NCBI GenBank assembly: GCA_003609755.1
Contig: AP017991.1
Span: 62,001-126,000 of the forward strand
From: Planktothrix agardhii NIES-204
GTDB lineage: Bacteria > Cyanobacteriota > Cyanobacteriia > Cyanobacteriales > Microcoleaceae
Direction of reading: 5' to 3'
DNA length: 64,000 nucleotides
Shown in pieces: positions 46,473 through 64,000 of the stretch. How positions within the stretch are numbered: position 1 is the first letter of the stretch; each line of letters begins with the position of its first letter. The notes beneath the pieces were generated by a model. That model did not search any database, had not been told where the DNA came from, and worked only from the letters and a program-made list of their open reading frames with translations. A program made the position numbers and the translations under genes.

Positions 46473-48764
46473 CTACTCTATCTCAAGATTATTGCGAAAA
46501 TCACAACCCAAATTAAATATTCTTTTTGTTTGGGTTATTCTGACTTGATCATCATCACCTCCACTAGCAATTAAGATATTTTTACCGACAATTTTAACAT
46601 CAACACTATTAATTTTTTTCTGATGATAGGAATGGCTAACTTCTTGTTTAATTCCCAGATTGTTTTCTATAGATGAACCATCAGGCATTGTTAAAGGTCG
46701 TTTTCCTTCAGAAGTTAAAGCCCAAAGTATGACTTTACCATCGTCCCCACCACTGGCTAAATAGCAGCCATTGTTACTAAATGAAACTGAACGAACCGCT
46801 TCCCCCATCTTGCTTCCTTGCCAACGATCAATTACTTCACATTCTCCTGAACTATCTAAACAGTTTTTCATATTCCAGATCGTAATATTTCCTTGATTAT
46901 CCCCTGTTGCTAAAATATTGGGAGCAATTTCTGCAACATCAACACTTAAAATATAATCATCTTGTCCTCCGGTTGGATAAGGAACTTTTAAGGTTTTATT
47001 CTGGTCAAGATTCCAAATTAAAAACTGATTATACCGACCGACAACTGCTAAATGACGATTATCTTTTCCGACAAAACTCAGGTCATAAACAGCAAAATCA
47101 AATTGTTTTTTCTTTAATAAGCGATCGCTTCCTTTAGTCATTTGATCTCGCTGAAGACTGGCATCCCACTGTACAACTAAACCACTACCATGACCACTAA
47201 ATAATATTTGAGAATCTTGAGAAAATTCTAAGGCAAAAACGCGATCATCTTTATTAATTGAAAAAGTATCAATTAACCCGGTTTCTTCCGTTAATCCCCA
47301 CAATTGAATCTCCCCATTTTCCAATCCGGCGGCGATCATATTATTGTCAACAGGTCGGTAACGTAAGACTCGCACAGCCTTTTTAGTATTGCCAATTTTA
47401 CCGATAAATTGATTGTGTAAATCATTAAAAAAGTTAGTAACTTTCCATTCAGCTATTGTCTGATCATTAGAACCACTCATGATCGTACTGGCTAACCCAT
47501 CAAATTGAACAGAATTAACTGGTTTTTTATGTCCTAAAGAGGGATGATAAGGATTCAGTGCCGAAAACCACCACAGTAACCCCAGTAATACAACACTGCC
47601 CGTTAATATTAACCACCGGGGAATAAAGGGTAAAACCTTTAATTTTAAGGTTTGACTGGGGGGAGAAGTTCCAGACAAACGGCTATCAGAAACAGAGGAA
47701 AGATTTTGTGTTTGTATTGTTGTTACTTCTATTAAAAATTCTCTCATCCGACCTAACCAATGTCGTTTAACTTTTGTTAATAATAAGATTTGATTTGTTT
47801 CGCCAATTTCGAGATCAATAGTAGGATCAAAATCATTAATTTCCACATCATGATTTACGGGTTCTATGGATTTTTTTTTGTCTTGTATTAATAGAGACAA
47901 ATCGGTTTTTAATTCATATTTTATTTTGTCTGAACAATTAATTTGGAGTTGAAATATCTGCGAAATATTGCTATAGTTTTTGATTTCTATATGAAAAATA
48001 ACCGGGTCAGAACGCCAAAAAAACCTTCTTCTATTGGGGATGCGACGTTCCTGGGGAAAACACCTAAATTCTACAATTCCTTGGGGTAAAATTAATAAAT
48101 TTCCGGTGATTTGCCTTGATAAACCATTGGTGATTGTTGCTGTAATAGTGAAGGGCTGAACTTGGCTTTTAGTTTGGATAATATCGGGGATTTGGCACCA
48201 GAAAACGGCATCAACTCGAAAACGAGATGGAATTTGGATAAGCTGTTGTTCTTCTATTAACCAGGTGGGATTAATTCCTGTTAATTTTAATACCGCATTG
48301 GCAGGTTGAGAACTGGGATTATAAACTTGAACAGGGATTTTAATTTGCTGTAGGGGGTAAGCTTGAAATTCCTGGACAGGAAGGGTTAATTTTAAGCCAA
48401 CTCCCCCGCTTCCTTCGAGTATATTTAACCGCAATAATTGACGGGTTTCTTCCTGAAGTTCAATGGAAAAAACTCTCACGGTTAGATTCATTTGACCGAC
48501 AAAACCAGGTAAAGGACTATCAATAATTTTAACCAGAAATTGTGTAGAATCTCCTGGGGGTTTTTTCGTGCAAATTTCGGGGGAGAGAATATACCAATTT
48601 GGGGCTAAATTTTCATCGGTACCCGCAGCTAATACTTCTACCTGAAAGCTGGCAAAACGATCACTATAGTTAATCGCATTGATTTCAAAAGATACGGCTG
48701 ATTCACCCGGTTTGAATGTTAGTTCAGTTGTAGAAATCTCAGTGGTAATTAGATTGGTTTTCAT
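46473..48764 (-). CDS. Membrane protein: N-terminal beta-sandwiches, one helix, WD40 propeller
   Basis: The 763-residue product starts with beta-sandwich domains (LTFKPGESAVSFEINAINYS; NWYILSPEICTKKPPGDS), has one membrane helix (RWLILTGSVVLLGLLWWF, about residue 405) and ends in a WD40 propeller (HKKPVNSVQFDGLASTIMSG, NDQTIAEWKV, GDDGKVILWALTSEG). The start is ATG 48764, with AAGGA upstream; a TTG at 48815 overlapping the previous stop is less likely. The layout parallels the downstream 849-residue protein, with a different C-terminal module. It is probably a membrane scaffold for the adjacent CIS; function inferred from context. Confidence 0.82.
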   Translation of the reverse strand: MKTNLITTEISTTELTFKPGESAVSFEINAINYSDRFASFQVEVLAAGTDENLAPNWYILSPEICTKKPPGDSTQFLVKIIDSPLPGFVGQMNLTVRVFSIELQEETRQLLRLNILEGSGGVGLKLTLPVQEFQAYPLQQIKIPVQVYNPSSQPANAVLKLTGINPTWLIEEQQLIQIPSRFRVDAVFWCQIPDIIQTKSQVQPFTITATITNGLSRQITGNLLILPQGIVEFRCFPQERRIPNRRRFFWRSDPVIFHIEIKNYSNISQIFQLQINCSDKIKYELKTDLSLLIQDKKKSIEPVNHDVEINDFDPTIDLEIGETNQILLLTKVKRHWLGRMREFLIEVTTIQTQNLSSVSDSRLSGTSPPSQTLKLKVLPFIPRWLILTGSVVLLGLLWWFSALNPYHPSLGHKKPVNSVQFDGLASTIMSGSNDQTIAEWKVTNFFNDLHNQFIGKIGNTKKAVRVLRYRPVDNNMIAAGLENGEIQLWGLTEETGLIDTFSINKDDRVFALEFSQDSQILFSGHGSGLVVQWDASLQRDQMTKGSDRLLKKKQFDFAVYDLSFVGKDNRHLAVVGRYNQFLIWNLDQNKTLKVPYPTGGQDDYILSVDVAEIAPNILATGDNQGNITIWNMKNCLDSSGECEVIDRWQGSKMGEAVRSVSFSNNGCYLASGGDDGKVILWALTSEGKRPLTMPDGSSIENNLGIKQEVSHSYHQKKINSVDVKIVGKNILIASGGDDDQVRITQTKRIFNLGCDFRNNLEIE

Positions 48765-48811
48765 GTTTAATTCCTTGAAATTTATCGTATTTAATTTATA
48801 ATTAATTATCT

Positions 48812-50269
48812 TCAATTTATTGAATTTTTATCCTTTTCTCCTATTTTTGTCCTGAGTTGTTGTGATTCTCTCAATAATACTTCTAAGTTTTTAACTTGCT
48901 TTTGGGAATTATTTCCAGTCTTAATTTTTTGCTTTTGCAAATCTTGATTTTTAAGTTGATCAATCATTTGTTTCCAATTTTGTTCGCGGCTGTAAATAAC
49001 ATTTGCCATAGCTAACATTACTTTTCCTAACTGTCCAAATTCATCGCGACGACTACTCACCTCCTCTAATATACTTTGATCAAAGTTTTGTGACTCAATA
49101 GTATGGGCTGCTTGTTGTAACTGTTCAATAGGTTTAATAATCCAACGCACCATTAACAGAGCTAAAATCACGCCAATACCCGCCACCGAAATGCCAATAA
49201 TTACGGTTAAAAGGGTATAGGTATAGATATGTTTAAGAAAATCAGAATAGGGAATCACAACCACCATTAACCAATCAATTCCTTCTTGATTTTGTAGAGG
49301 GGTGACTTGGACAAGCTGTAAATCTCCTTTGAATCGAAAGGTGAATTGTTGTTTGTCTTTAATCTGATCTAAACCATTAAATTTTTCAATTAAGTATTGA
49401 CCTGTTCCTTGAATAGTCGGATTTTGACTTTCACTAATATTCAGTCGTTCAGTTTGATTATTCACTACTTTAAATGGTTGCTCTAAAGTTGAGATGGCAA
49501 TTACATCTCCCGTCCTTTCTATAATTAAAGCTTTTCCATTCTGACTAATTTCTAAATTTCCTAAAAATTTGCTAATTTGTACCAGACTAATATCAGTGGA
49601 AATCACTCCTTCAAAATTCCCAGATTCCTGATTGTAAATCGGAATAGAAAAATCCATCCCCACCGTATTGATACTGCCAAATTTATAAACCGGAGTCCAG
49701 GTTGGTTTTTCTGCGCTTTTAGCAAATTTATACCAGAGACGAAGGCGAGGATCATACTCCACGCTTTTGATCAATCTTTTGCGATTTGCTTTGGAGTCAA
49801 CTTCATAAAAGTTTCGATTCGAGTTCGTTGATTCATCTCTAATTTTTTCTATAAATTCATTTTCTGTTTTTTCATAACTTACATGATTTCCTTGTTCTGT
49901 TCCTATATAAATGGAATTTAAAGCGGTTTCGTCTTGTATTTGTCGCCAAAAATATTGCTTGACTTCCGGTAAATTATTAACATCAACATTTCTACTTTGG
50001 ATAGCTGCTAAATATGCAGGTAATAATAATTGTGGCTTTCCTAAATAATTGCGAACATTGAGTTCAATTATCTGAGTCGATTTTTCACTGACTTGTAACA
50101 TCAACTTTTCAATCTCTTGTTTTCCTAATTGAAAGTTAAACCAGCCAATCACGGCGATGGAAGCCAATAAAGGTGTAACAATAATCAGGGGCAAGGTATG
50201 GCGAATGGATAAAGAACCCACGGATTTATCAAAAATTTTATACAAAGTAGAGAAAGTTTTGTTGGCCAT
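48812..50269 (-). CDS. dCache-HAMP transmembrane sensor without output domain
   Basis: The 485-residue protein has helix 1 (PLIIVTPLLASIAVIGWFNF), an extracytoplasmic double-Cache domain (FWRQIQDETALNSIYIGTEQ; WTPVYKFGSINTVGMDFSIP), helix 2 (LTVIIGISVAGIGVILALLM), a HAMP linker (RWIIKPIEQLQQAAHTIESQ) and a coiled coil (about 430-485), where it ends. No kinase, cyclase or methyl-accepting domain follows. The Cache part resembles that of the kinase at 19897. Its stop lies 47 bp before the WD40 gene start. I prefer ATG 50269 to a TTG 16 codons upstream. It may relay an external or lumenal stimulus to the CIS by direct contact (inference). Confidence 0.85.
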   Translation of the reverse strand: MANKTFSTLYKIFDKSVGSLSIRHTLPLIIVTPLLASIAVIGWFNFQLGKQEIEKLMLQVSEKSTQIIELNVRNYLGKPQLLLPAYLAAIQSRNVDVNNLPEVKQYFWRQIQDETALNSIYIGTEQGNHVSYEKTENEFIEKIRDESTNSNRNFYEVDSKANRKRLIKSVEYDPRLRLWYKFAKSAEKPTWTPVYKFGSINTVGMDFSIPIYNQESGNFEGVISTDISLVQISKFLGNLEISQNGKALIIERTGDVIAISTLEQPFKVVNNQTERLNISESQNPTIQGTGQYLIEKFNGLDQIKDKQQFTFRFKGDLQLVQVTPLQNQEGIDWLMVVVIPYSDFLKHIYTYTLLTVIIGISVAGIGVILALLMVRWIIKPIEQLQQAAHTIESQNFDQSILEEVSSRRDEFGQLGKVMLAMANVIYSREQNWKQMIDQLKNQDLQKQKIKTGNNSQKQVKNLEVLLRESQQLRTKIGEKDKNSIN

Positions 50270-50333
50270 AGTAAGTTTTAATTTTATAGTAGCAAAAAGA
50301 TTAACAACTTCAATCAATTAATTGTTCATAAAC

Positions 50334-51922: not shown

Positions 51923-52945
51923 TTACCCTGTTTCTATGATTAACTCGTAACTACAAAATGCCGGTTTTTCCTGTTCAATAATAGTTCGCACTAAGGCTTC
52001 TTCAATGGGGCGATCGGGTTCTGGACGCAGGCGAACTGTAAAATGAAAGGGTCGCACTCCTCCCAAAATAGCGTCGTAACCTAAGCGAGTTTTGTCCAAG
52101 ACGAAGCCGGAATTAAAAAACTCATAAATTCCAATATGTTTTTCATCTTCATTCATAATATGATCATCTAAAGGTAAACGAGTTGCTAAGTAAAGATATA
52201 GGCGCAGACCCCGACGAGTTCCTCGCCATCTATAAATTTCAATCGCATTTCGGATTAAGTTTCTTTGCTGTTCTAAGGTTAAATAAGGTTGATTTTTCCA
52301 GCCTACCCAGTGAGCTAGAAACTCTAACATTCCGATCGGGGCTGTTAGGGGATCTAAATAAGCCCAAAGGTTAGAAAGAATTTGGACATCCGGTTCTAAA
52401 GTCGCTTCAAAAATTTGCAGAAAACGTCCAACAAAATCAATTTCTCGATAAAAATTAGGTAGAAATTGTTGATAACGGCTAATAGGGCGAACATAAAGGT
52501 TAAAAGTTGCTATTTCTAGCAATTGTGATCCTGTTCCCGGGGCTGCTCCATAAACAGCTAAACGGCTTTGATAATCTAATTTCAGAACTTGACCCACACC
52601 AAGGGCAAAGGGATTTTCAAAGAAATCCGCCGGGGTTTGAAAGCGGATAATCGCTTTGATTGTTTCGGCAGGTGTTAGTAAAAACGCGGGATTTTCTTCC
52701 TCTAGTTCTGTGATGATAGTATACCAATTCTGGGGAAAATCTCCTGTAATTTCTAGGGTTAATTCTAAAGTATAACTTCCTAAATTTTCTAAATTAACCA
52801 CCAATTCACTGGCTTCTCCTGGGACAAGTAAAAGACTCGGATTTTCCAGATTAATATTTTCCGATGCCTGAATCGGAAGCGTGTTTAAATTTGCTTCCGG
52901 TGATCGCATAGGAATTAATTTTAAAATCAGGAGTTCACGAGCCAT
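51923..52945 (-). CDS. CIS baseplate protein, tail-protein-I-like, with N-terminal beta-sandwich
   Basis: The 340-residue protein has two parts. Residues 25-155 are a beta-sandwich (LLVPGEASELVVNLENLGSY; NWYTIITELEEENPAFLLTP) like those in the two membrane proteins of this locus. Residues 165-340 match the phage tail protein domain common in extracellular injection systems (YQQFLPNFYREIDFVGRFLQ; LIRNAIEIYRWRGTRRGLRL; FHFTVRLRPEPDRPIEEALV). In the Afp/PVC series it corresponds to the Afp12 position, a baseplate wedge component. Start at ATG 52943-52945. Confidence 0.85.
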   Translation of the reverse strand: MARELLILKLIPMRSPEANLNTLPIQASENINLENPSLLLVPGEASELVVNLENLGSYTLELTLEITGDFPQNWYTIITELEEENPAFLLTPAETIKAIIRFQTPADFFENPFALGVGQVLKLDYQSRLAVYGAAPGTGSQLLEIATFNLYVRPISRYQQFLPNFYREIDFVGRFLQIFEATLEPDVQILSNLWAYLDPLTAPIGMLEFLAHWVGWKNQPYLTLEQQRNLIRNAIEIYRWRGTRRGLRLYLYLATRLPLDDHIMNEDEKHIGIYEFFNSGFVLDKTRLGYDAILGGVRPFHFTVRLRPEPDRPIEEALVRTIIEQEKPAFCSYELIIETG

Positions 52946-53055
52946 AAATCAGTTATCAGTTATCAGTCATCAGTTATCAGTGTAAGAGGTATCAGTGATC
53001 AGTTGAGGAGTTAATAAATTAACTGTAAACTTAATAACTGTAAACTGTTAACTGA
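52946..53055. repeat. TCAGTTA heptamer array reaching into the baseplate-J gene
   Basis: Irregular TCAGTTA/TCAGTCA units and inverted TTAACTG units fill the whole gap between the tail-protein and baseplate-J genes. The inner end (to about 53060) supplies the last codons and stop of the baseplate-J gene. Confidence 0.8.
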
Positions 53056-55258
53056 TAAATGAAATAACGTGCTGCGATCGCAGGGTCGAATCAGCCCAGG
53101 AACAGATCAATCCCTTGGGGCCAGGATTAACAGTGGGGGATGGGGGCAGACGCATCCAAGATTGTCCTTGACGCTGAAGTTCAAACAGTTGCAGTGTCCC
53201 AATATAACGAATCGCATCAAACTGCTGGATCACAGTGATCGCATCGCTGAGATAGACAGGTTGACCCAGGGGCCAGCCCTTTTGATCCATGCCTCCGGTA
53301 ATGGGATTAAAAAAGCTGTAAAGAGCGACTAGCATTTGTTGGCGGAGGGTTTGCTGGGCAACGGGGTGATTGTATTCGGGTTTGAGGGCAACTTCCGCCT
53401 GAATTGCCACCCCCGTATAGTCACCGGAGACACATAACACCTGTACCCCTAAAAGCCGCCGTTCGTCCAGGTAGGCGATCACTTTTTGCTCCAGATCATC
53501 GGTGAGGGTGAACTGGTCGGGGTGAATGCCCTCACTGCGGATGATGTCATCCTCCCCCAAGCCCCCCGTGAACGGGGAGTTTAGGGGTGTCACCTGTGGA
53601 ACAATTAAAACCCGTACTGTCCCTCCTTTGCCACTGGTAACAGGTAAACAGTGGGCGCGAGCCACGGCCCCAGCCCCGCCCCTAATCGCCAACTCCTCAA
53701 AATCTTCAGGGGTAACGGCCCGATCGCGGGTACGAAGCATTTGAGGCACACGGATCGCCGCCTGTTCTAAGGTTTCAGCCTCGGCTCCATTTCTGGCTGG
53801 TTGATGGTTAATCACACTGGCAACATAGGGAACGGCCGTTTTCAAAATTTCTAACGTCCCCACCTGAACGTTTCCCCCCGAACCTCCTCCCGTGCGGTAA
53901 CGAGACATCTGCAACGTCGCTCCTTTTGGGGGAATACTGCCATATTGGTTTTGTAAGTCGGAACTTGAAAGTAGCATTTGCCTAGAGGTATGGGTTTGTG
54001 CGTTTGCCCTTAACTCCATTGCTTCCTTGAGTTGGCTGGCTTCCCTGACTAATGGGCCTAATTGCAGGACACCTGTTAGGGAGTCGATAATATAGTGTTG
54101 ATCGTTTACTCCCGACTCTGAAAAATCCTTGACTTCTTGCCAGCGTTGGGGAATGGCACCTGGGGGGGTAACAATCAGATATTCGTCCTCTCGCCGTTCT
54201 AGTACGGGTGTTCCTTGAAGTTGAAAAAACTGTCCGGGGTCGCCGTTGCTTTCCCCTAAGATTTCATCTTCAATAATTTCACATTGGGTGGCTTTCACGG
54301 TTCCGCCAATGGCTGTGGCCGTAATCCCAATCATCCGAGGTGAGCGACTGTAGGCGGGTTGTCTGGGATCGGTTTCTGTACAAACACACCGCAACCACCG
54401 ACCTCGATAGGCGGTGAAGTTAGCCGGAGGAAAGTTAATTGGCAGGTGCAGGGTCACGTCGGCACCTTGTAATGGGTTGCCGCCTTTTTGGGCGAGGTTA
54501 CTGAAGCTAAATCCTTGGGTTTCGTCATCGGATTCTTGTAGGAGGACGGGTTGCCATTCACTTCCATTCCAGGCTTCCCAGCGACGGGGGGGCGATGCGG
54601 GGTTAATTCCGGTGGGAGTGGCTTCTTGACCTTTAATCCTAATGGTGAGAACGTTACCATCCAGGGGTTCATCGGGGTCAAAGACCAGATAGAAGCAATT
54701 ACCAGGTTGGGGACTATCACTGAACAGGGAAAGCTCAGGGCCAGACCAGTTACCCGGCAATGCGGCACTCCAGAAGTTGGTAAAGCGATCGCGCAAAACC
54801 TGCGGGTTCGAGGGTGCTGTATCCCCGGTGAGAAAGTGTTGGATGGTGGGTTGACCAATAATCAGGGGTTGGTCGGTTGTAAACACAATGGCGGACTGGG
54901 TGGCCGTGCGTCCTGTGGCGACTTCGGTTCCCGTTGTGATGGTATAAGTATCTGGCAGATCGCCGACTAAATAAAATGTGATTTCTGTTGTTGCTGGTTT
55001 GGGCGGTTGTAAACGAATACCGAGCAATTCTAAGAAGGTAATATAATTACGTCGGGGGACTTGATTAAACCGAGCTAACATTTGGTCGGTTAACCAAGCA
55101 AATAGTTCAACTAAGGTAATACCTGGATCACTGGGATTATAGTTTGTCCACTCTGGACAATAGCGGGGAATCCTCAGAATACATTCTTTTACCAGGTCTT
55201 CATAGTCCCGATCATCTAAGTTAGGTTTGGGTAGTTTAGGTAAAAAGTCAAAAACCAT
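53048..55258 (-). CDS. CIS baseplate protein, gpJ-like (Afp11 type)
   Basis: The 736-residue product begins with the segment typical of putative baseplate assembly proteins: FDFLPKLPKPNLDDRDYEDL, YNPSDPGITLVELFAWLTDQ and NQVPRRNYITFLELLGIRLQ. A beta-rich middle and the gpJ domain follow (ARNGAEAETLEQAAIRVPQM; RDRAVTPEDFEELAIRGGAG). Such proteins form the inner baseplate wedge that holds the sheath-contraction trigger. The final residues (HVISFIS) are coded by a heptamer array that appears to have replaced the original 3' end. GC content is higher here (53.1-54.9 kb) than in the neighbours. It follows gp25 by 47 bp. Confidence 0.92.
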   Translation of the reverse strand: MVFDFLPKLPKPNLDDRDYEDLVKECILRIPRYCPEWTNYNPSDPGITLVELFAWLTDQMLARFNQVPRRNYITFLELLGIRLQPPKPATTEITFYLVGDLPDTYTITTGTEVATGRTATQSAIVFTTDQPLIIGQPTIQHFLTGDTAPSNPQVLRDRFTNFWSAALPGNWSGPELSLFSDSPQPGNCFYLVFDPDEPLDGNVLTIRIKGQEATPTGINPASPPRRWEAWNGSEWQPVLLQESDDETQGFSFSNLAQKGGNPLQGADVTLHLPINFPPANFTAYRGRWLRCVCTETDPRQPAYSRSPRMIGITATAIGGTVKATQCEIIEDEILGESNGDPGQFFQLQGTPVLERREDEYLIVTPPGAIPQRWQEVKDFSESGVNDQHYIIDSLTGVLQLGPLVREASQLKEAMELRANAQTHTSRQMLLSSSDLQNQYGSIPPKGATLQMSRYRTGGGSGGNVQVGTLEILKTAVPYVASVINHQPARNGAEAETLEQAAIRVPQMLRTRDRAVTPEDFEELAIRGGAGAVARAHCLPVTSGKGGTVRVLIVPQVTPLNSPFTGGLGEDDIIRSEGIHPDQFTLTDDLEQKVIAYLDERRLLGVQVLCVSGDYTGVAIQAEVALKPEYNHPVAQQTLRQQMLVALYSFFNPITGGMDQKGWPLGQPVYLSDAITVIQQFDAIRYIGTLQLFELQRQGQSWMRLPPSPTVNPGPKGLICSWADSTLRSQHVISFIS

Positions 55259-55305
55259 AAAAATCAGTTATCAGTCATCAGTTATCAGTAATTCGTAATT
55301 CGTAA

Positions 55306-55722
55306 TTAGTTTTCAACTTGCAAATAAAAGGGAAAAACAATACTGCGTCCTTCGTAAGTTTTTTGCAGATGGTAAATAATATTAAGATCAACTCTTCCTT
55401 GATAGGAGTCAGGGTCAGTTAGGACTTCATCAACAATAATTCGGGGTTCCCAAAGTTCTAATGCTTCTTGGACATAAATTCGCATTAACATCAGGGTTTG
55501 TTGGTTAATGGGGGCGAAATTCAACTCGGACAAACGACAGCCAAAATTAGGCCGATAAACCCTTTCTCCCCATTGGGTCAGCAGGATAATATAAATTGAT
55601 TCTCTGATATTCTGTTCCTCTGCACTCAAGTCGAGGTTGCCCTGAAGGTTGATTTGCATGGGAAATCGTAAACCTTGACCCAAGTAAGGACGGCTTAATT
55701 GTCGATTCGCTAAATTAACCAT
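55306..55722 (-). CDS. CIS baseplate wedge protein, GPW/gp25 family (Afp9 type)
   Basis: The 138-residue product has YLGQGLRFPMQINLQGNLDL, then IRESIYIILLTQWGERVYRP, NFGCRLSELNFAP and the conserved EPRIIVDEV, all typical of gp25-like lysozyme-fold wedge proteins that seed the sheath. The ATG at 55720-55722 directly follows a GGGTAAT array (55723-55758), so the ribosome site itself is made of repeat units (GGGTAATAGGTA-ATG). No PAAR-type gene lies between this gene and baseplate-J, where Afp10 would be expected. Confidence 0.92.
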   Translation of the reverse strand: MVNLANRQLSRPYLGQGLRFPMQINLQGNLDLSAEEQNIRESIYIILLTQWGERVYRPNFGCRLSELNFAPINQQTLMLMRIYVQEALELWEPRIIVDEVLTDPDSYQGRVDLNIIYHLQKTYEGRSIVFPFYLQVEN

Positions 55723-56040
55723 TACCTATTACCCATTACCTATTACCCATTATCTGTATCCAGATGGATGCCCTTAATTTAGCTTATTGATTCGACCGGG
55801 TGTATTCTCCAAAGGTCTAATCACACCTAAGATATTTTTTATGGAAGTTCCCAGCCGTTGAAACGGCGGGTTATACAAACTAAGTCCACCTGCGTGGACT
55901 AAGAGAAAATTCAGGTCTTAAACCCACGAAGGTGGGTTTTGTCTGTGTAGCCACGATTTCTAATTGCTTGGTTCTTTAATTTTTTCTTAAACCCACGAAG
56001 GTGGGTTTTGTCTGTGTAGCCACGATTTCTAATTGCTGGG
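55723..56040. repeat. Heptamer array and foldback element between gp25 and VgrG genes
   Basis: This 306-bp spacer starts with GGTAATA/GGGTAAT units (55723-55758). From 55855 a foldback element follows (GTTGAAACGGCGGGTTATAC; AGTCCACCTGCGTGGACT). A 69-bp direct repeat of AACCCACGAAGGTGGGTTTT plus GTCTGTGTAGCCACGATTTC comes next, at 55921-55989 and 55990-56058. The second copy contains the VgrG stop codon and its last codons. The middle part 55760-55854 shows nothing coding. Confidence 0.8.
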
Positions 56041-57990
56041 TTCTTTGATTTTTTCTCGCAGGTCGCTTAAGGTTTGAGCTTGCTGAATATCAGTGGTGAT
56101 ATTTTGTTGAACCTGCTCCTTAAGTTGAGCCATTTCTTGAGCACGAGAGAGATCACTGTTAGTATTTTGCTGAATTTGCTGTTGCAAATTAGTTAAGGTT
56201 TCTCCAACATTAATACTATTAACCGTTGTACCCATTAGGAATTGTGTCGCTAAAACATTGCCCGATACTAATACCTGTCCCGTTCCCGGTTGTAGCTGAA
56301 TATTTCCCTTTGACTCAATAGTAATACCCCCCTGATCATCTAAACGAATTGACTGTCCCGCCTTAGTCCTCACCTCAATTGACCCATTACTATCATTGAG
56401 GCGAATTTGATGGCCCTGACTGGTTTGAATATAAATACCCGCCGCCGTCCCATCTTTATCTTCTTCCACAAATTGTAAAGTGTGCTGGGTACGAGTTTTA
56501 AATGTTCTTAAGCGGACTTTCCCCTTGTCAACCGAGTCTTCAATATTGGCGGGGGGCTGATCTTTGCCATTCCAAACCCCACCAATAATATAGGGGCGAT
56601 GAATGTCTCCATGTTCAAAGGCAACCAACACCTCATCATTAATTTCCGGTAAACAGTCGAACCCACGATCTGGGCCAGCCCCCACCCCCACAACCCTCGC
56701 CCAGTAACTCGCATGGGCGGTACTATCTTGTTCCGGGGTCAGGGTCGGAAATTTCACCCGCACCCGTCCCCAACCCTTGGGATCTTTGTTATCTGTGACA
56801 ATACCCACCAGATGGGTCTGTCCAGGTCTGAGGCGTGTACTTGGGGAAAGGGTTTGCAGCAAGTTGTCTCCCCGGAGTCCCCGCACACTAAATTCCGTTG
56901 TGTAAATTCCCTCATAAAATAGATGGCGACTTTCTGTAACGTAATAACTGCCACTATAACGACCCATTCTATCTAGTTCTACAACTTTCCCCGGTCGGAT
57001 GCGGGGGTTGCCCTGTCCCCGGGTATCGGCATAGATAAAGTCCCCTTCTAACTCATTAAAAAGTGCCTGTGCCATCACTTCTGCTTCTTTAATGGTAGCA
57101 GTGGGTTGATCCACAACTAATAGCTTAGGTTCAGAAGGGTTCAACCCGAACTTTTGGCTATAGTCCCTGCCTTTTCCGTATTCGGTACGAGTCAGAATCT
57201 CAGAAGTAGTTAATTGACTGGTTTCTTTGGGAATACGGGCAACGATGGGCTCCTTTCTTTCATAGTCCCAACTCCGTACTTCCACCGCTTTCACTTGTTC
57301 AGCACTGGTTAAACGAACACGAAAACTGGTAAAATCAGCCAGCCAAACTAACTGTAAAATCTCATTAATCTGAGGATTGCGAAAATTCAGTTTACCATCT
57401 TGGACAAACAATTCAAACCCAATGCGGGCGGCTCGTTCCCGCAGAAATGCCATATTGGTTTGATTTTCTTGAAACACATATTCATGTTTTTCCCCACTAG
57501 AGTCAATTGTATGGGTTTCAATTCCCACTTCTTCGGCGATTTTTTTGACAATATCCGAATCAGTATAATCTTGAAAAGATCGAATATAAAGTCCTCGATG
57601 TAAGCGATGGGAAATGTCATAACCCCGAATTACAATAGGAGCTTGAGTTTGTCCTGAGAAATGAGTTTCAATTGCTGTAATTTCCCCATCAATTAAATAG
57701 GTTGGCTGATTATTGGGTTGTTCAGAATCAGAATTCGTACTGGGAATAAAACCAATTTTAATAACTTTACCAATTTGGATAATGTCCTGATCATACTTCC
57801 AGGTTTTTGTTTCTTGATCAGTGGCAGCATAGGGATTATTAATAACTACGGTAAACATAGCGGGTAAATGCAAACTTTCTTCTACAGAAATTTGCAGAAT
57901 ATCCCGCCTAAAATCATTCATTAAGTCTGGATCAACTCCATCAACTGTAATAATAGGAGTCGAGACATAATCCGTTGCTTGTGAACTCAT
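56029..57990 (-). CDS. CIS spike protein, VgrG/gp27-gp5-like (Afp8 type)
   Basis: The 653-residue product has a gp27-like base (residues 1-370: DFRRDILQISVEESLHLPAM; FLRERAARIGFELFVQDGKL), the OB-fold entry GIVTDNKDPKGWGRVRVKFP near residue 400, then DSTAHASYWARVVGVGAGPD, EINDEVLVAFEHGDIHRPYI and a beta-prism needle (SQGHQIRLNDSNGSIEVRTK). A coiled-coil tail with heptads of Gln (LTNLQQQIQQNTNSDLSRAQ) ends it. It forms the membrane-piercing tip. ATG 57990 is preferred to a GTG four codons upstream. The stop lies in a duplicated repeat. No C-terminal effector domain. Confidence 0.93.
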   Translation of the reverse strand: MSSQATDYVSTPIITVDGVDPDLMNDFRRDILQISVEESLHLPAMFTVVINNPYAATDQETKTWKYDQDIIQIGKVIKIGFIPSTNSDSEQPNNQPTYLIDGEITAIETHFSGQTQAPIVIRGYDISHRLHRGLYIRSFQDYTDSDIVKKIAEEVGIETHTIDSSGEKHEYVFQENQTNMAFLRERAARIGFELFVQDGKLNFRNPQINEILQLVWLADFTSFRVRLTSAEQVKAVEVRSWDYERKEPIVARIPKETSQLTTSEILTRTEYGKGRDYSQKFGLNPSEPKLLVVDQPTATIKEAEVMAQALFNELEGDFIYADTRGQGNPRIRPGKVVELDRMGRYSGSYYVTESRHLFYEGIYTTEFSVRGLRGDNLLQTLSPSTRLRPGQTHLVGIVTDNKDPKGWGRVRVKFPTLTPEQDSTAHASYWARVVGVGAGPDRGFDCLPEINDEVLVAFEHGDIHRPYIIGGVWNGKDQPPANIEDSVDKGKVRLRTFKTRTQHTLQFVEEDKDGTAAGIYIQTSQGHQIRLNDSNGSIEVRTKAGQSIRLDDQGGITIESKGNIQLQPGTGQVLVSGNVLATQFLMGTTVNSINVGETLTNLQQQIQQNTNSDLSRAQEMAQLKEQVQQNITTDIQQAQTLSDLREKIKEPSN

Positions 57991-57997
57991 AAAACAA

Positions 57998-58085
57998 CCC
58001 ACTAATAATCAGTTATCAGTCATCAGTTATCAGTCTTTCATCCCTATTCCGGTGTTCCGGTGTTCCGGTGTTCCCTAACTAAAAG
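57998..58085. repeat. TCAGTTA units and CCGGTGTTC tandem repeats
   Basis: TCAGTTATCAGTCATCAGTT (58008-58034) is followed by four tandem TTCCGGTGT units (58041-58075), between the tube-cap and spike genes. No gene. Confidence 0.75.
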
Positions 58086-58088
58086 TGA

Positions 58089-58946
58089 TTATGTCACCAC
58101 AAATTTTTGGCGCTCGCTGAAGGCTCTACTTGCCACCCCTAAATCAACTTCTTCTAAAGTAATGTTAACCATAGCTCGCACGGGTGTTCCATTGGGTAAA
58201 AACATGGTTAATTTATAGTCTAATTGTTTAATCATACAACACATATAATTCTTTTCACCCCAAATAAAATAAAAAACAGGAGGTCGTCTTGTTTCCAATG
58301 TCTGACTACCGACCTTTTCTGAACCAAATTCTCTATAACCCAAGACATTTTTTCCCCCGACCGATCCCACAAAGGATTGCATTGCTGTTTCCGATGAACT
58401 TAATTTAACCAGCCTTTCTTGGTATCCCCCAGGAGTTGTTGATTTCGCAAAAGGATCTTTAAATTTAGAAAAATCCACTGCATCCAATAGGGGTTTAATA
58501 CTATCAAAAACACTCGCACCCGTTTCATAGGTATCAAATAAAATCCCAGATAAGGTAAGTTTATAAGCTTCAATAGAGCCAAAGTTAACTTTCGGTAAGC
58601 CCCTTTGTGTTCTCGATCCATCCATTGTTTTAATGGTAACAGATCGGCTTAAACTCAAATCAGTTGGATTGAACATAAAGTTAATCGGAGAAGCTGCTTC
58701 ACCCGTTCTCGGTATGAGAGCAGCTTTAACTAACCGTTGATCCCTTTGTTGCGCTTTGTAACTTTCCTGAGCTAGATTTTTAAACCTGTTTTCTTCTGAT
58801 ATAAACTGCCGATCTCTTGCCAGATCCTCTGCTGCGGCAGCTTCTAAAATTTTTATATCCGCCGCTTCGAGCATAGCATTTTTCAACGCTGTTCCCAGCG
58901 TTGACAGTGCCTGATTTCCCGACTCTTCTGTCGATGAACTTGACAT
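58089..58946 (-). CDS. CIS tube-cap/spike-adaptor protein (Afp7 type)
   Basis: The 285-residue product has a helical start (about residues 1-85) and then the CIS tube domain: INFMFNPTDLSLSRSVTIKT, NFGSIEAYKLTLSGILFDTY, RPPVFYFIWGEKNYMCCMIK and GTPVRAMVNITLEEVDLG. In related systems it sits between the inner tube and the spike and often carries a LysM domain; none is seen here. ATG 58944-58946 is chosen because AAGGAG lies 6 bases upstream; 14 further codons upstream lack such a site. It precedes the spike gene as in Afp, PVC and cyanobacterial clusters. Confidence 0.92.
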   Translation of the reverse strand: MSSSSTEESGNQALSTLGTALKNAMLEAADIKILEAAAAEDLARDRQFISEENRFKNLAQESYKAQQRDQRLVKAALIPRTGEAASPINFMFNPTDLSLSRSVTIKTMDGSRTQRGLPKVNFGSIEAYKLTLSGILFDTYETGASVFDSIKPLLDAVDFSKFKDPFAKSTTPGGYQERLVKLSSSETAMQSFVGSVGGKNVLGYREFGSEKVGSQTLETRRPPVFYFIWGEKNYMCCMIKQLDYKLTMFLPNGTPVRAMVNITLEEVDLGVASRAFSERQKFVVT

Positions 58947-59024
58947 ATTTTTCTCCTTAATTATAAGTAACTTTGTTGATAGCCTCAAAAAATTTATTAA
59001 GAACTTTTTGAGCCAAAATCATAC

Positions 59025-62000
59025 TTAAAATAATCGACGATCATAAGATGAACCCTGTCGCTCCCTTTCTATTTCAAAACGTTGTCGGACAAGACCATAA
59101 ATTTCTCTAGCTAAAACTTCAACTTGATCTGTTTTAGTTTCTGCCTGTTTTGTTTCCTCCTTTTGTGCTACACTTGCTGATGAAGACTGATGATATTCTA
59201 GTCCTAAATTTGAGCGAGTAAGAGTTTCAACAGGTTCAGCTTTACGACTAGCAGTTTTTTGCTCCTGTTGTATTCTAGTTTGGATTGTTTTTTCCATTAG
59301 TACCTTCACAGAAGTTGGCTGCTGTTGTAAATCTAAATTGTGAATTCCCGCAACACCACTAGAAATTCCAGGGGGTAACAGCATCCCAGCAGGGAAGTCC
59401 AATGTCTGATGCGGGTGTTTACGGTGCTTCGCTTGTCGCCCTTCTTTTTTGAAGAAAGCTTGCACAACAGTTGGTTTACTTGGCGTTGAGTTGCTTTCAC
59501 CGAGCAATTCTTCAATACTTGACCAAGAATCAGGAACATCTGAGGTTGAAAAATCGCTTTCTTGCTGTTGAATCATTATACCTTGTTTTGATGATTCATT
59601 GTTAAAATTCGGCTCAGATTTTGGCTCTATATTAATCGTTGAAGGAGAAGCAAACTGATCCAGATTATCTAAAACATTTTCATGTTCATCTTTTGATAGC
59701 ATAGGATTAGTTTGAAGAAAGGAAGTTTCTGAGATCAATTTAGATGGTTGAATTAAAGATTTGGAAATACCTAAAGGTTTGCTATGGGTAATATTTTCTA
59801 ATACTTGAGGAAGTTGAGGAATAGCACCAGGTTGTCTTAACAATTGTGCAACAGTTTGACTTTCCGTTTGTTTTTGGATATCAGAAACCGGGATTTCTGG
59901 TGTAACAATACCCGTGGGATTAATTGTTGATGCGGAATCCGATTGTTTTTGGAGAGTTGAAACGGGAATTTCTGGTGTAACAATACCCGTGGGATTAATT
60001 ACTGATACTGATTCCGGTTGTTTCTGGAGAGTTGAAACGGGAATTTCTGGTGTAACAATACCCGTGGGATTAATTGTTGATACTGATTCCGGTTGTTTCT
60101 GGAGAGTTGAAACGGGAATTTCTGGGTTAATAATATTCGTGGGATTAATTACTGATACTGATTCCGGTTGTTTTTGGAGAGTTGAAACGGGAATTTCTGG
60201 GTTAAGAATATCCGTGGGATTAATTACTGATACTGATTCCGGTTGTTTTTGGAGAGTTGAAACAGGAATTTCTGGTGTAACAATACCCGTGGGATTAATT
60301 GTTGATGCGGAATCCGATTGTTTTTGGAGAGTTGAAACAGGAATTTCTGGGTTAATAATATCCGTGGGATTAATTTTTGATACGGATTCCGATTGTTTTT
60401 GGAGAGTTGAAACAGGAATTTCTGGGTTAGGAATATCCGTGGGATTAATTGTTGATACTGATTCCGTTTGGGGAATGTTATCAATTGCAGAATCCGGTTG
60501 TTTCTGGAGAGTTGAAACAGGAATTTCTGGGTTAGGAATATCTGTAGGATTAATTGTTGATACTGATTCCGATTGTTTTTGGAGAGTTGAAACGGGAATT
60601 TCTGGTGTAACAATATCTGTAGGATTAATTGTTGATACTGATTCCGATTGTTTTTGGAGAGTTGAAACGGGAATTTCTGGTGTAACAATATCTGTAGGAT
60701 TAATCGTTGATACTGATTCCGATTGTTTTTGGAGAGTTGAAACAGGAATTTCTGGGTTAGGAATATCTGTAGGATTAATTTTTGATACGGATTCCGATTG
60801 TTTTTGGAGAGTTGAAACGGGAATTTCTGGGTTAATAATATCTGTAGGATTAATTACTGATACTGATTCCGGTTGTTTCTGGAGAGTTGAAACGGGAATT
60901 TCTGGGTTAATAATATCCGTGGGATTAATTTTTGATACGGATTCCGATTGTTTTTGGAGAGTTGAAACAGGAATTTCTGGTGTAACAATATCTGTAGGAT
61001 TAATTGTTGATACGGATTCCGTTTGGGGAATGTTATCAATTGCAGAATCCGGTTGTTTCTGGAGAGTTGAAACAGGAATTTCTGGTGTAACAATACCCGT
61101 GGGATTAATTGTTGATACTGATTCCGGTTGTTTCTGGAGAGTTGAAACGGGAATTTCTGGGTTGATAATATTCGTGGGATTAATTACTGATACTGATTCC
61201 GATTGTTTCTGGAGAGTTGAAACAGGAATTTCTGGTGTAACAATACCCGTGGGATTAATTGTTGATGCGGAATCCGATTGTTTTTGAAGAGTTGAAACGG
61301 GAATTTCTGGGTTAATAATATCTGTAGGATTAATTGTTGATGCAGAATCCGGTTGTTTCTGGAGAGTTGAAACAGGAATTTCTGGTGTAACAATACCCGT
61401 GGGATTAATTGTTGATGCGGAATCCGATTGTTTTTGAAGAGTTGAAACGGGAATTTCTGGGTTAATAATATCTGTAGGATTAATTGTTGATGCAGAATCC
61501 GGTTGTTTCTGGAGAGTTGAAACAGGAATTTCTGGGTTAATAATATTCGTGGGATTAATTACTGATAAGGATTCCGATTGTTTTTGGAGAGTTGAAACGG
61601 GAATTTCTGGTGTAACAATATCTGTAGGATTAATTACTGATACTGATTCCGGTTGTTTCTGGAGAGTTGAAACGGGAATTTCTGGGTTGATAATATTCGT
61701 GGGATTAATTACTGATAAGGATTCCGATTGTTTTTGGAGAGTTGAAACGGGAATTTCTGGTGTAACAATATCTGTAGGATTAATTACTGATACTGATTCC
61801 GGTTGTTTCTGGAGAGTTGAAACGGGAATTTCTGGGTTGATAATATTCGTGGGATTAATTACTGATACTGATTCCGATTGTTTCTGGAGAGTTGAAACAG
61901 GAATTTCTGGTGTAACAATACCCGTGGGATTAATTACTGATACTGATTCCGGTTGTTTTTGGAGAGTTGAAACGGGAATTTCTGGGTTAAGAATATCCGT

Positions 62001-64000
62001 GGGATTAATTACTGATACTGATTCCGGTTGTTTTTGGAGAGTTGAAACAGGAATTTCTGGTGTAACAATACCCGTGGGATTAATTGTTGATGCGGAATCC
62101 GATTGTTTTTGAAGAGTTGAAACGGGAATTTCTGGGTTAATAATATCTGTAGGATTAATTGTTGATGCAGAATCCGGTTGTTTCTGGAGAGTTGAAACAG
62201 GAATTTCTGGGTTAATAATATTCGTGGGATTAATTACTGATAAGGATTCCGATTGTTTTTGGAGAGTTGAAACGGGAATTTCTGGGTTAAGAATATCCGT
62301 GGGATTAATTACTGATACTGATTCCGGTTGTTTTTGGAGAGTTGAAACAGGAATTTCTGGTGTAACAATACCCGTGGGATTAATTGTTGATGCGGAATCC
62401 GATTGTTTTTGAAGAGTTGAAACGGGAATTTCTGGGTTAATAATATCTGTAGGATTAATTGTTGATGCAGAATCCGGTTGTTTCTGGAGAGTTGAAACAG
62501 GAATTTCTGGGTTAATAATATTCGTGGGATTAATTACTGATAAGGATTCCGATTGTTTTTGGAGAGTTGAAACGGGAATTTCTGGTGTAACAATATCTGT
62601 AGGATTAATTACTGATACTGATTCCGGTTGTTTCTGGAGAGTTGAAACAGGAATTTCTGGGTTAAGAATATCCGTGGGATTAATTGTTGATACTGATTCC
62701 GATTGTTTTTGGAGAGTTGAAACAGGAATTTCTGGGTTAGGAATATCTGTAGGATTAATTGTTGATACTGATTCAGTTTGAGGAATGTTATCAATTGTGG
62801 AATCCGGTTGTTTTTGAAGAGTTGAAACAGGAATTTCTGGGTTAATAATATCTGTAGGATTAATTACTGATACTGATTCCGGTTGTTTCTGGAGAGTTGA
62901 AACAGGAATTTCTGGGTTAATAATATCCGTGGGATTAATTTTTGATACTGATTCCGATTGTTTTTGGAGAGTTGAAACGGGAATTTCTGGGTTAATAATA
63001 TCCGTGGGATTAATTTTTGATACTGATTCCGGTTGTTTCTGGAGAGTTGAAACGGGAATTTCTGGGTTGATAATATTCGTGGGATTAATTACTGATAAGG
63101 ATTCCGATTGTTTTTGGAGAGTTGAAACGGGAATTTCTGGTGTAACAATATCTGTAGGATTAATTACTGATACTGATTCCGGTTGTTTCTGGAGAGTTGA
63201 AACGGGAATTTCTGGGTTGATAATATTCGTGGGATTAATTACTGATACTGATTCCGATTGTTTCTGGAGAGTTGAAACAGGAATTTCTGGTGTAACAATA
63301 CCCGTGGGATTAATTACTGATACTGATTCCGGTTGTTTCTGGAGAGTTGAAACGGGAATTTCTGGGTTAATAATATTCGTGGGATTAATTACTGATACTG
63401 ATTCCGATTGTTTCTGGAGAGTTGAAACTGGAATTTCTGGTGTAACAATACCCGTGGGATTAATTGTTAATACTGATTCCGTTTGGGGAATGTTATCAAT
63501 TGCAGAATCCGGTTGTTTTTGGAGAGTTGAAACAGGAATTTCTGGGTTAATAATATCCGTGGGATTAATTACTGATACTGATTCCGGTTGTTTTTGGAGA
63601 GTTGAAACGGGAATTTCTGGTGTAACAATACCCGTGGGATTAATTACTGATACTGATTCCGGTTGTTTCTGGAGAGTTGAAACAGGAATTTCTGGGTTAG
63701 GAATATCTGTAGGATTAATTGTTGATGCGGAATCCGATTGTTTTTGAAGAGTTGAAACTGGAATTTCTGGTGTAACAATACCCGTGGGATTAATTGTTAA
63801 TACTGATTCCGTTTGGGGAATGTTATCAATTGCAGAATCCGGTTGTTTTTGGAGAGTTGAAACAGGAATTTCTGGGTTAATAATATCCGTGGGATTAATT
63901 ACTGATACTGATTCCGGTTGTTTTTGGAGAGTTGAAACGGGAATTTCTGGTGTAACAATACCCGTGGGATTAATTACTGATACTGATTCCGGTTGTTTCT
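59025..64000 (-). CDS. Giant 25-residue-repeat protein of the CIS locus (5' end outside window)
   Basis: The minus-strand frame ending at 59025 is open without any stop to the window edge (codons aligned to 63998), 1,657 residues so far. A TTG at 59841-59843 is only an internal codon. From 63998 down to about 59850 the protein is a tandem array of the unit INPTGIVTPEIPVSTLQKQP-ESVST. A unique part of about 275 residues follows (VVQAFFKKEGRQAKHRKHPH), ending in a charged helix (LAREIYGLVRQRFEIERERQ). This C-terminal helix and the position before the tube-cap gene recall the small Afp6-type protein of other CIS loci (inference). The repeats have no cysteine, few aromatics and much Pro, Thr, Ser and Gln, so they are probably extended. 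The role is unknown. Confidence 0.85.
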   Translation of the reverse strand, partial: KQPESVSVINPTGIVTPEIPVSTLQKQPESVSVINPTDIINPEIPVSTLQKQPDSAIDNIPQTESVLTINPTGIVTPEIPVSTLQKQSDSASTINPTDIPNPEIPVSTLQKQPESVSVINPTGIVTPEIPVSTLQKQPESVSVINPTDIINPEIPVSTLQKQPDSAIDNIPQTESVLTINPTGIVTPEIPVSTLQKQSESVSVINPTNIINPEIPVSTLQKQPESVSVINPTGIVTPEIPVSTLQKQSESVSVINPTNIINPEIPVSTLQKQPESVSVINPTDIVTPEIPVSTLQKQSESLSVINPTNIINPEIPVSTLQKQPESVSKINPTDIINPEIPVSTLQKQSESVSKINPTDIINPEIPVSTLQKQPESVSVINPTDIINPEIPVSTLQKQPDSTIDNIPQTESVSTINPTDIPNPEIPVSTLQKQSESVSTINPTDILNPEIPVSTLQKQPESVSVINPTDIVTPEIPVSTLQKQSESLSVINPTNIINPEIPVSTLQKQPDSASTINPTDIINPEIPVSTLQKQSDSASTINPTGIVTPEIPVSTLQKQPESVSVINPTDILNPEIPVSTLQKQSESLSVINPTNIINPEIPVSTLQKQPDSASTINPTDIINPEIPVSTLQKQSDSASTINPTGIVTPEIPVSTLQKQPESVSVINPTDILNPEIPVSTLQKQPESVSVINPTGIVTPEIPVSTLQKQSESVSVINPTNIINPEIPVSTLQKQPESVSVINPTDIVTPEIPVSTLQKQSESLSVINPTNIINPEIPVSTLQKQPESVSVINPTDIVTPEIPVSTLQKQSESLSVINPTNIINPEIPVSTLQKQPDSASTINPTDIINPEIPVSTLQKQSDSASTINPTGIVTPEIPVSTLQKQPDSASTINPTDIINPEIPVSTLQKQSDSASTINPTGIVTPEIPVSTLQKQSESVSVINPTNIINPEIPVSTLQKQPESVSTINPTGIVTPEIPVSTLQKQPDSAIDNIPQTESVSTINPTDIVTPEIPVSTLQKQSESVSKINPTDIINPEIPVSTLQKQPESVSVINPTDIINPEIPVSTLQKQSESVSKINPTDIPNPEIPVSTLQKQSESVSTINPTDIVTPEIPVSTLQKQSESVSTINPTDIVTPEIPVSTLQKQSESVSTINPTDIPNPEIPVSTLQKQPDSAIDNIPQTESVSTINPTDIPNPEIPVSTLQKQSESVSKINPTDIINPEIPVSTLQKQSDSASTINPTGIVTPEIPVSTLQKQPESVSVINPTDILNPEIPVSTLQKQPESVSVINPTNIINPEIPVSTLQKQPESVSTINPTGIVTPEIPVSTLQKQPESVSVINPTGIVTPEIPVSTLQKQSDSASTINPTGIVTPEIPVSDIQKQTESQTVAQLLRQPGAIPQLPQVLENITHSKPLGISKSLIQPSKLISETSFLQTNPMLSKDEHENVLDNLDQFASPSTINIEPKSEPNFNNESSKQGIMIQQQESDFSTSDVPDSWSSIEELLGESNSTPSKPTVVQAFFKKEGRQAKHRKHPHQTLDFPAGMLLPPGISSGVAGIHNLDLQQQPTSVKVLMEKTIQTRIQQEQKTASRKAEPVETLTRSNLGLEYHQSSSASVAQKEETKQAETKTDQVEVLAREIYGLVRQRFEIERERQGSSYDRRLF
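59850..64000 (-). repeat. Coding 75-bp tandem array, about 53 copies, with 30-bp inserts and multi-unit duplications
   Basis: The unit is 75 bp (25 codons) and runs to the window edge. Variation is limited to a few positions: (G/N/D)-I-(V/I/L/P)-(T/N) before PEIPVS and (P/S)-(E/D)-S-(V/L/A)-S-(T/V/K) at the unit border. Five units carry a 30-bp insert coding for about DNIPQTESVS (near 60465, 61020, 62775, 63480, 63810). Larger blocks are duplicated: 63421-63670 equals 63751-64000 (shift 330 bp), 61981-62285 equals 62281-62585 (shift 300 bp), and 61561-61710 equals 61711-61860 (shift 150 bp). All units are multiples of three, so the frame holds. Confidence 0.93.

Follow-up and report, generated by a model that had tools for sequence, protein, structure and literature searches.

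The giant gene and its surroundings

The window, i.e., the whole 64,000-nucleotide stretch of the Planktothrix agardhii NIES-204 genome that was analysed, ends within a giant, tape-measure-like gene on the minus strand (59025..64000). Its frame (59025-63998) is open for 1,657 codons up to the window edge, and the initial annotation was right to read it as one minus-strand gene; a run of unrelated short frames was rejected, as a single frame holds 162 repeat units together with conserved ends. Extension of the sequence beyond position 64000 uncovered the start, which is a TTG or an ATG five codons later, with the frame continuing in the same genome to C1:135571 (whole gene, C1:121025-135571, or to 73571 in window numbering) and encoding a total of 4,848 aa. 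The genome stretch fetched for the gene contains no N. The reported giant repeat gene is confirmed as real, and it is larger than first described.

The part of the tandem array that lies in the window (59883..64000, minus strand) comprises 53 units with the 25-aa consensus EIPVSTLQKQSESVSTINPTDIVNP, in agreement with the original estimate of about 53 copies, and successive units are spaced by 25 aa in 47 cases and by 35 aa in five. Over its full extent, the array counts 162 units (160 EIPVS anchors plus two variants) at spacings of 25 aa (129 times), 35 aa (28 times), and 50 and 60 aa (once each, at sites with a mutated anchor), so that the reading frame is kept by every unit. The 129 25-aa units fall into 66 distinct DNA versions and 33 protein versions, and their single-base variants include 11 of 56 possible synonymous changes versus 10 of 169 possible non-synonymous ones (Fisher p = 0.006), an excess that suggests selection on the repeat protein; the five anchor residues are invariant because the units were picked by those residues. 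The repeat region is acidic and rich in proline, serine, and threonine, with proline making up 14% of the array.

Outside the array, the protein has non-repetitive ends of approximately 240 residues at the N-terminus and 285 residues at the C-terminus. The unique C-terminal region (59028..59882, minus strand), comprising the residues past the last anchor, contains two features recognised in alignments. These are a SWSSIEELL block at 59502..59528 (minus strand), common to relatives as WSSVEELL, and a C-terminal helix-like motif, DQVEVLAREIYGLVRQRFEIERERQG, at 59052..59129 (minus strand), which is proposed here as a hub-docking element. The whole 4,848-aa protein matched no Pfam family, including no eCIS_core, adhesin, wall-binding, or toxin domain; among PHROG models, it matched only the unknown PHROG 31320, through summed repeats of which no single stretch passes, and the C-terminus of the window protein had no match among phage records.

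In the direction of transcription, the contractile injection system (CIS) locus begins with eCIS_core proteins, followed by a YbjN-like protein, a PBP-like protein with a weak kinase match, an 83-aa protein, and a tube protein (Phage_T4_gp19, for which the nearest NCBIfam model, CIS5, is under its cut-off); the giant gene comes next, and after it Cis7, Cis8, Cis9, Cis11, and Cis12. Specifically, the downstream genes, all on the minus strand, encode a Cis7-type tube initiator (58089..58988; Pfam CIS_tube PF19266, E 1.8e-16), a Cis8-type spike/hub protein (56029..58002; Phage_base_V, with Phage_GPD just below cut-off), the gp25-like Cis9 (55306..55722; family match), Cis11 (53048..55258; Baseplate_J, TIGR02243), and a Cis12-type protein (51923..52945; Tail_P2_I, TIGR02242). 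The immediate downstream neighbour had been called a tube-cap gene, a label that needs correction, as the Pfam CIS_tube match places it with the Cis7/LysM tube initiators at the baseplate end. The accompanying proposal that the giant gene holds the position of Afp6/Cis6 was borne out by its slot between the Cis5-type tube gene and Cis7. The gene likewise lies after tube genes and before a LysM hub gene, which we take to be the tape-measure slot of PBSX-like phages.

The CIS genes of this genome are split, with the baseplate module at window positions 51923-58988 and a second set of genes 3.6 Mb along the contig (C1:3769-3778 kb, L021). This second locus holds the genome's only sheath match, three other tube genes, a Pvc16-type cap gene, and an ATPase gene (named from its Walker motif). 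Beside the tube genes are two small proteins matching the PHROG_508 tail assembly chaperone (E 2.6e-5 and 8.5e-7), on one of which Pfam Phage_TAC_7 gave 0.0085, under its cut-off. Upstream of the giant gene, three eCIS_core (DUF4157) proteins are encoded on the minus strand (L010:6223-8781, L010:8917-15909, and L011:1875-4856), one with a tandem repeat of its own (QAKLESGIVQRSEEEEEP) and one with an Ntox11 domain.

Relatives within and beyond Planktothrix

The C-terminal region was found in four of the ten Planktothrix genomes searched, the window's own included, and the other three carriers (P. rubescens PCC 7821, P. paucivesiculata PCC 9631, and Planktothrix sp. PCC 11201) all have arrays with copy numbers that differ from that in the window genome; an artefact of one assembly was rejected on the strength of these three further assemblies. 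P. rubescens PCC 7821, which is assigned to the same species as the window genome, has about 75 units, mostly of 35 aa, with no N in the fetched stretch, and its protein amounts to ~2,900 aa over two pieces relative to 4,848 aa in the window genome. A 421-aa transposase-like ORF (L017:5204-6469, named by eye) lies inside the PCC 7821 array and splits the gene. The arrays of PCC 9631 and PCC 11201 contain N gaps and are built for the most part from units of 30 and 24 aa, which have a common core, LQKQ..S..INPTDI..PEI. This comparison indicates an array that is common to part of the genus, with conserved ends and a body that turns over fast.

Beyond the genus, the C-terminal 179 residues, used as a query, located the family in 51 of 291 Cyanobacteriales genomes (50 of 290 when the window's own genome is set aside), with a stop present in 2 of 55 Cyanobacteriales match rows and in some Chloroflexota match rows. 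A profile of the last 62 residues returned 72 named loci among 84,980 genomes, from cyanobacteria and two Chloroflexi; within the Chloroflexota, the same profile matched 39 of 400 genomes at E <= 0.01, a count that takes in the two starting genomes. The supposition that the C-terminus is the conserved part was well founded, as it is the most conserved region in alignments of the relatives, and it does recur in other cyanobacterial CIS loci. Cis7 lies within 400 bp downstream in 95 of the 97 members with room (101 members fetched), and a Cis5-type tube gene lies within 700 bp upstream in 66 of the 77 with room. Three of the 11 members that have no Cis5-type gene directly upstream are IS-split or gapped Planktothrix copies. 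Six loci repeating a genome, as well as the window gene, were excluded from these neighbour counts; near-identical strains may remain, so the family counts do not represent independent events.

Length and composition were compared in 70 members counted as intact, a set from which 5'-open or N-bearing frames and three loci with duplicate last 120 residues were removed, along with split, gapped, duplicate, or doubtful loci (L017, L018, L019, L069, L081, L082, L083, L097, L125, and L148). These members range from 270 to 4,848 aa (median 1,159), i.e., over 18-fold. Their bodies vary; nine of them are clearly built from tandem repeats, for which the best period lies between 24 and 70 aa, and members of ~270 aa without repeats exist in the family. 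Ser, Glu, Pro, and Thr are most often among the four commonest residues, the body carries a net negative charge in 69 of the 70, and 69 members, the window protein among them, have no 19-residue stretch that reaches a hydropathy of 1.6. At 60-80% C-terminal identity, the median length ratio between members is 1.06-1.10, with single pairs overall reaching 1.59 (341 pairs, 70 members).

The W..(V/I)E(E/D)L pattern occurs in 45 of the 70 intact members, and the C-terminal motif of the family reads LAREIYxLxRQRLEIERERxG. This motif resembles the end of the 83-aa protein mentioned above (profile comparison of 60 vs 27 sequences, 93%, E 3e-7), whose gene (L010:2125-2376, minus strand) lies just beyond the window and directly upstream of the Cis5-type gene. 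Such an 83-aa neighbour is present in 56 of 75 related loci with room. From the likeness of their ends, the giant and 83-aa proteins seem to share one docking-type helix.

In the Chloroflexota, a motif-bearing frame was found in the slot in all six loci fetched; as these had been chosen by the motif, they show only that such a frame occupies the slot. Seven plasmid loci were chosen by Cis7 and therefore provide an independent test of the slot frame, and a profile search of their 2,942 frames found the slot gene in two (Nostoc and Paenibacillus; E <= 4e-4). The slot proteins of S. clavuligerus (E 0.09-2.5), Rhodococcus (0.026-8.8), and Haloferax (5-9) are similar by eye and not significant, and the Treponema and Deinococcus psychrotolerans plasmid loci yielded no slot match. 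Finally, a Roseiflexus-type genome, in which a sheath segment has 95% identity to the R. castenholzii epitope known from the literature, has a slot gene for a 975-aa protein that carries an eCIS_core domain and terminates with the family motif.

Tape-measure, plug, and effector counterparts

A link to phage tape-measure proteins comes through the relatives. A block, SDTVPAMLTPGEFVIN..DAQKNL.LL.HIN.GG, is present in 36 of the 70 intact members and in 47 of all 108, where it starts 203-289 residues from the protein end (median 275). Comparison of a 70-aa block copy with 50,697 phage records by tblastn gave 245 matches at E <= 0.01, and among 60 of these sampled at even steps down the ranking, 54 were annotated as tape measure and six as endolysin; in phages Krueger, Ximenita, and Yuna, a single match bears both names, tape measure in one of the two records and endolysin in its counterpart. 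The best match was the tape-measure protein of a Nodularia phage (57.8% identity, E 1e-15), and block identity was 33-64% in the phage matches listed. PHROG tape-measure models matched the relatives weakly (E 0.0016-0.84 in four of seven members scanned), and no tape-measure family was found when family members were searched against Pfam and NCBIfam. Neither the motif nor the block nor the Haloferax slot protein retrieved anything meaningful from the PDB, where a designed repeat protein reached E 8e-4 by summed matches only, and the C-terminal motif matched none of the CIS chains in the PDB, including those of S. coelicolor entry 9GTP. The window protein itself does not contain the tape-measure block. 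Its alignment with members that do have the block covers the C-terminal helix and the YSSP..WSSVEELL region, so that its membership rests on common ends and a common slot, through its relatives.

Like the genes for phage tape measures, exemplified by Nodularia phage vB_NpeS-2AV2 and diffocin CD1366, the window gene is a large gene before a LysM/hub gene, its product has a conserved helix-like C-terminal end, and chaperone-like genes accompany the tube genes. Unlike these proteins, its product has a body built as a proline-rich repeat array and no hydrophobic segments, and the 14% proline of the array sets it apart from helical tape measures. According to the accessible part of the diffocin study, the diffocin tape measure forms a trimer that fills the tube with its body and contacts the spike through its C-terminal helices; trimers were also resolved for C-terminal residues of the 80-alpha and T5 tape measures, as they were for those of diffocin in the spike region, and ejection is proposed for the diffocin protein (PMC10996793).

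Known plug and tape-measure families have no match in nearly all of the family genomes. With the three draws of 291 Cyanobacteriales genomes (family, DUF5908, and CIS_TMP) taken as one set, DUF5908 (the Afp6 plug, PF19265) occurs in 11 genomes and CIS_TMP (Afp14, PF19268) is over cut-off in 15, with all 11 DUF5908 genomes also carrying CIS_TMP. Among the 51 family genomes, DUF5908 and CIS_TMP are each present in one, the same genome (G214) for both. The family and CIS_TMP exhibit no significant mutual avoidance (overlap 1, p = 0.48); CIS_TMP does not come together with the giant family, and the counts say no more than that. Likewise, neither PF19265 nor PF19268 was found in 24 family genomes (0/24 in each case), and comparison of the family profile with ten DUF5908 proteins gave a probability of 0.4%. 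The Afp6-type homology that had been suggested for the C-terminus was rejected at the sequence level on these grounds, as was identity with Afp14/CIS_TMP (0/24 family genomes vs 15/291 in the order).

The spike plug Alg6/Cis6/Afp6 (DUF5908) and the giant protein are nevertheless alike in gene position, after tube genes and before Cis7, and in an arrangement of N-terminal segment, flexible loop, and short C-terminal helix. The plugs differ from it in their size of 52-67 aa (ten compared), in having no detectable sequence similarity to it, and in their co-occurrence with CIS_TMP in 11 of 11 genomes. In short DUF5908 loci, tube genes adjoin in 10 of 10, and Cis7 is recognised in three of 10. Afp14/CIS_TMP is, like the giant protein, a proposed CIS length-control part; it differs in sequence and in its presence in one of 51 family genomes. 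In the portions of the two reports that were available, Alg6/Cis6 is described as a trimer in the same spike cavity, with a flexible loop that enters the lumen in Anabaena (PMC8894135, PMC8894136).

The initial annotation knew of no described CIS part of this kind, which is partly right, the exception being Tme of the Streptomyces davawensis CIS. In the available sections of its description, Tme is a very large effector related to tape measures, ~70% disordered and encoded immediately before the baseplate genes; it combines a C-terminal nuclease with hydrophobic regions and a DUF4157 domain (PMC11126660). The window protein resembles Tme as so described in being very large, encoded just upstream of baseplate genes, and tape-measure-related. 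The Roseiflexus-type homologue possesses DUF4157 (eCIS_core) as well, which ties the family to Tme (PMC11126660); the window protein, unlike Tme, has no Pfam domain at all, DUF4157/eCIS_core included.

A tape-measure-type reading and its alternatives

With a probability of roughly 0.65, the giant gene encodes a tape-measure-type protein of the contractile injection system, with its helix docked in the hub and its repeats in the lumen. For the giant protein, we infer trimer formation, docking, a luminal location, and ejection. The conserved C-terminal helix, probably trimeric, would dock in the Cis8 spike cavity under the Cis7/Cis5 rings and would there nucleate tube assembly, which is the job of the Afp6/Cis6 plug. 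The long repeat region would occupy the tube lumen and extend in the direction of the distal end, at which the cap may be contacted by the short N-terminal PLG segment. During assembly, the giant protein would be held by the tail-assembly-chaperone-like proteins, whose genes adjoin those of the tube, and firing would expel it together with the rest of the tube contents.

A length-setting element, which the array may be, was one of three functions originally offered for it, and the 18-fold length range counts against a simple ruler. Under a strict ruler of 1.5 A per residue, 4,848 aa would correspond to a tube of ~0.73 um and the 270-aa members to ~40 nm, which makes a literal ruler unlikely for the whole family; the contrast of ~2,900 vs 4,848 aa within one species, together with the 18-fold range, also fits a strict ruler poorly. 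Three 4,848-aa copies in a 4-nm lumen would take up ~150 nm fully packed and ~310 nm half packed (lumen width and copy number being assumed), and three copies could thus fit a tube of 200-400 nm. Set side by side, the packing and ruler calculations favour a luminal tape-measure-type protein with no commitment to a strict ruler. It is tempting to go further and suggest, tentatively and at somewhat less than even odds, that a single family, in which a conserved helix docks in the hub and a disordered body of ~270-4,800 residues evolves freely in the lumen, is both the plug and the tape measure that a branch of injection systems is reported in print to lack, and that in Planktothrix, where the copy number of the 162-unit array changes between close relatives, tube length or filling can be retuned by repeat slippage.

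The same variability could be taken to mean that the C-terminal helix plugs the spike and that the array is a slippage-prone filler, with no set length and no measuring function. This plug with a neutral tail would agree with the 18-fold length range, the copy-number change within one species, the ~270-aa members without repeats, and the presence of clear repeats, of differing periods, in only nine of 70 members. We consider it rather unlikely in view of the synonymous-variant excess among the units (p = 0.006), the frame kept over 162 units, and the median length ratio of 1.06-1.10 at 60-80% C-terminal identity, even with single pairs up to 1.59.

Less probable still is a luminal cargo, i.e., a tape-measure-derived effector or carrier that is delivered on firing, like Tme of S. 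davawensis. Tme is itself a tape-measure-related effector in the accessible text of its description (PMC11126660), ejection of the diffocin tape measure is proposed in the available part of that study (PMC10996793), and the Roseiflexus-type homologue in the same slot carries eCIS_core. The window protein, however, has neither eCIS_core nor any other Pfam domain, no eCIS_core was found in the seven cyanobacterial relatives or the two other Chloroflexota homologues scanned, and three eCIS_core proteins are encoded separately upstream. An adhesin, or an outside fibre or a leash to the membrane or cell wall of the sort that the initial annotation had also entertained, is highly improbable. The long low-complexity repeats do resemble extended linkers, and a dCache/HAMP protein is encoded in the same gene run, but against such a function stand the slot between tube adaptor and tube initiator, the tape-measure block in relatives, and the absence of hydrophobic segments (no 19-residue stretch at hydropathy 1.6 in 69 of 70 members), which point instead to the tube lumen, as well as the lack of any Pfam adhesin or wall-binding domain.

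As a luminal tape-measure-type protein, the giant protein may represent a type of component that related injection machines are reported to lack. For example, S. coelicolor CIS particles are of identical length (268 nm, 61 sheath layers), and their authors state, in the part of the article available, that a tape-measure gene is absent from the cluster (PMC12237407). Its absence is also stated, in the accessible sections of the respective papers, for S. coelicolor and S. venezuelae (PMC10066040) and for S. lividans (PMC10286715), and both plug and tape measure are stated to be absent from the cluster of the archaeon H. borinquense (PMC11566945). A literature search, with subscription papers mostly outside it, returned no paper naming this cyanobacterial family, and none on Planktothrix together with a contractile injection system. 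The present family occupies the slot in cyanobacteria and Chloroflexota, has a helix conserved at its end, and retains a tape-measure block in many members; it is a direct candidate for the missing part, and it makes CIS length control testable by removing or shortening the gene. The spread from 270 to 4,848 aa also provides a natural series in which to ask whether disordered proteins can measure or fill tubes.

Several further features of the locus were observed. The dCache/HAMP protein (48812-50317, minus strand), which lies within the CIS gene run and has no output domain by Pfam, is possibly a sensor or a membrane anchor. After the baseplate genes and in the same direction (minus strand) are genes for an 849-aa protein with a hydrophobic stretch and a weak CARDB match (43880-46429) and for a WD40 protein (46473-48815). 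Finally, a 69-bp direct repeat in two copies (97%) is located at the 3' end of the Cis8 gene (55916-56056).
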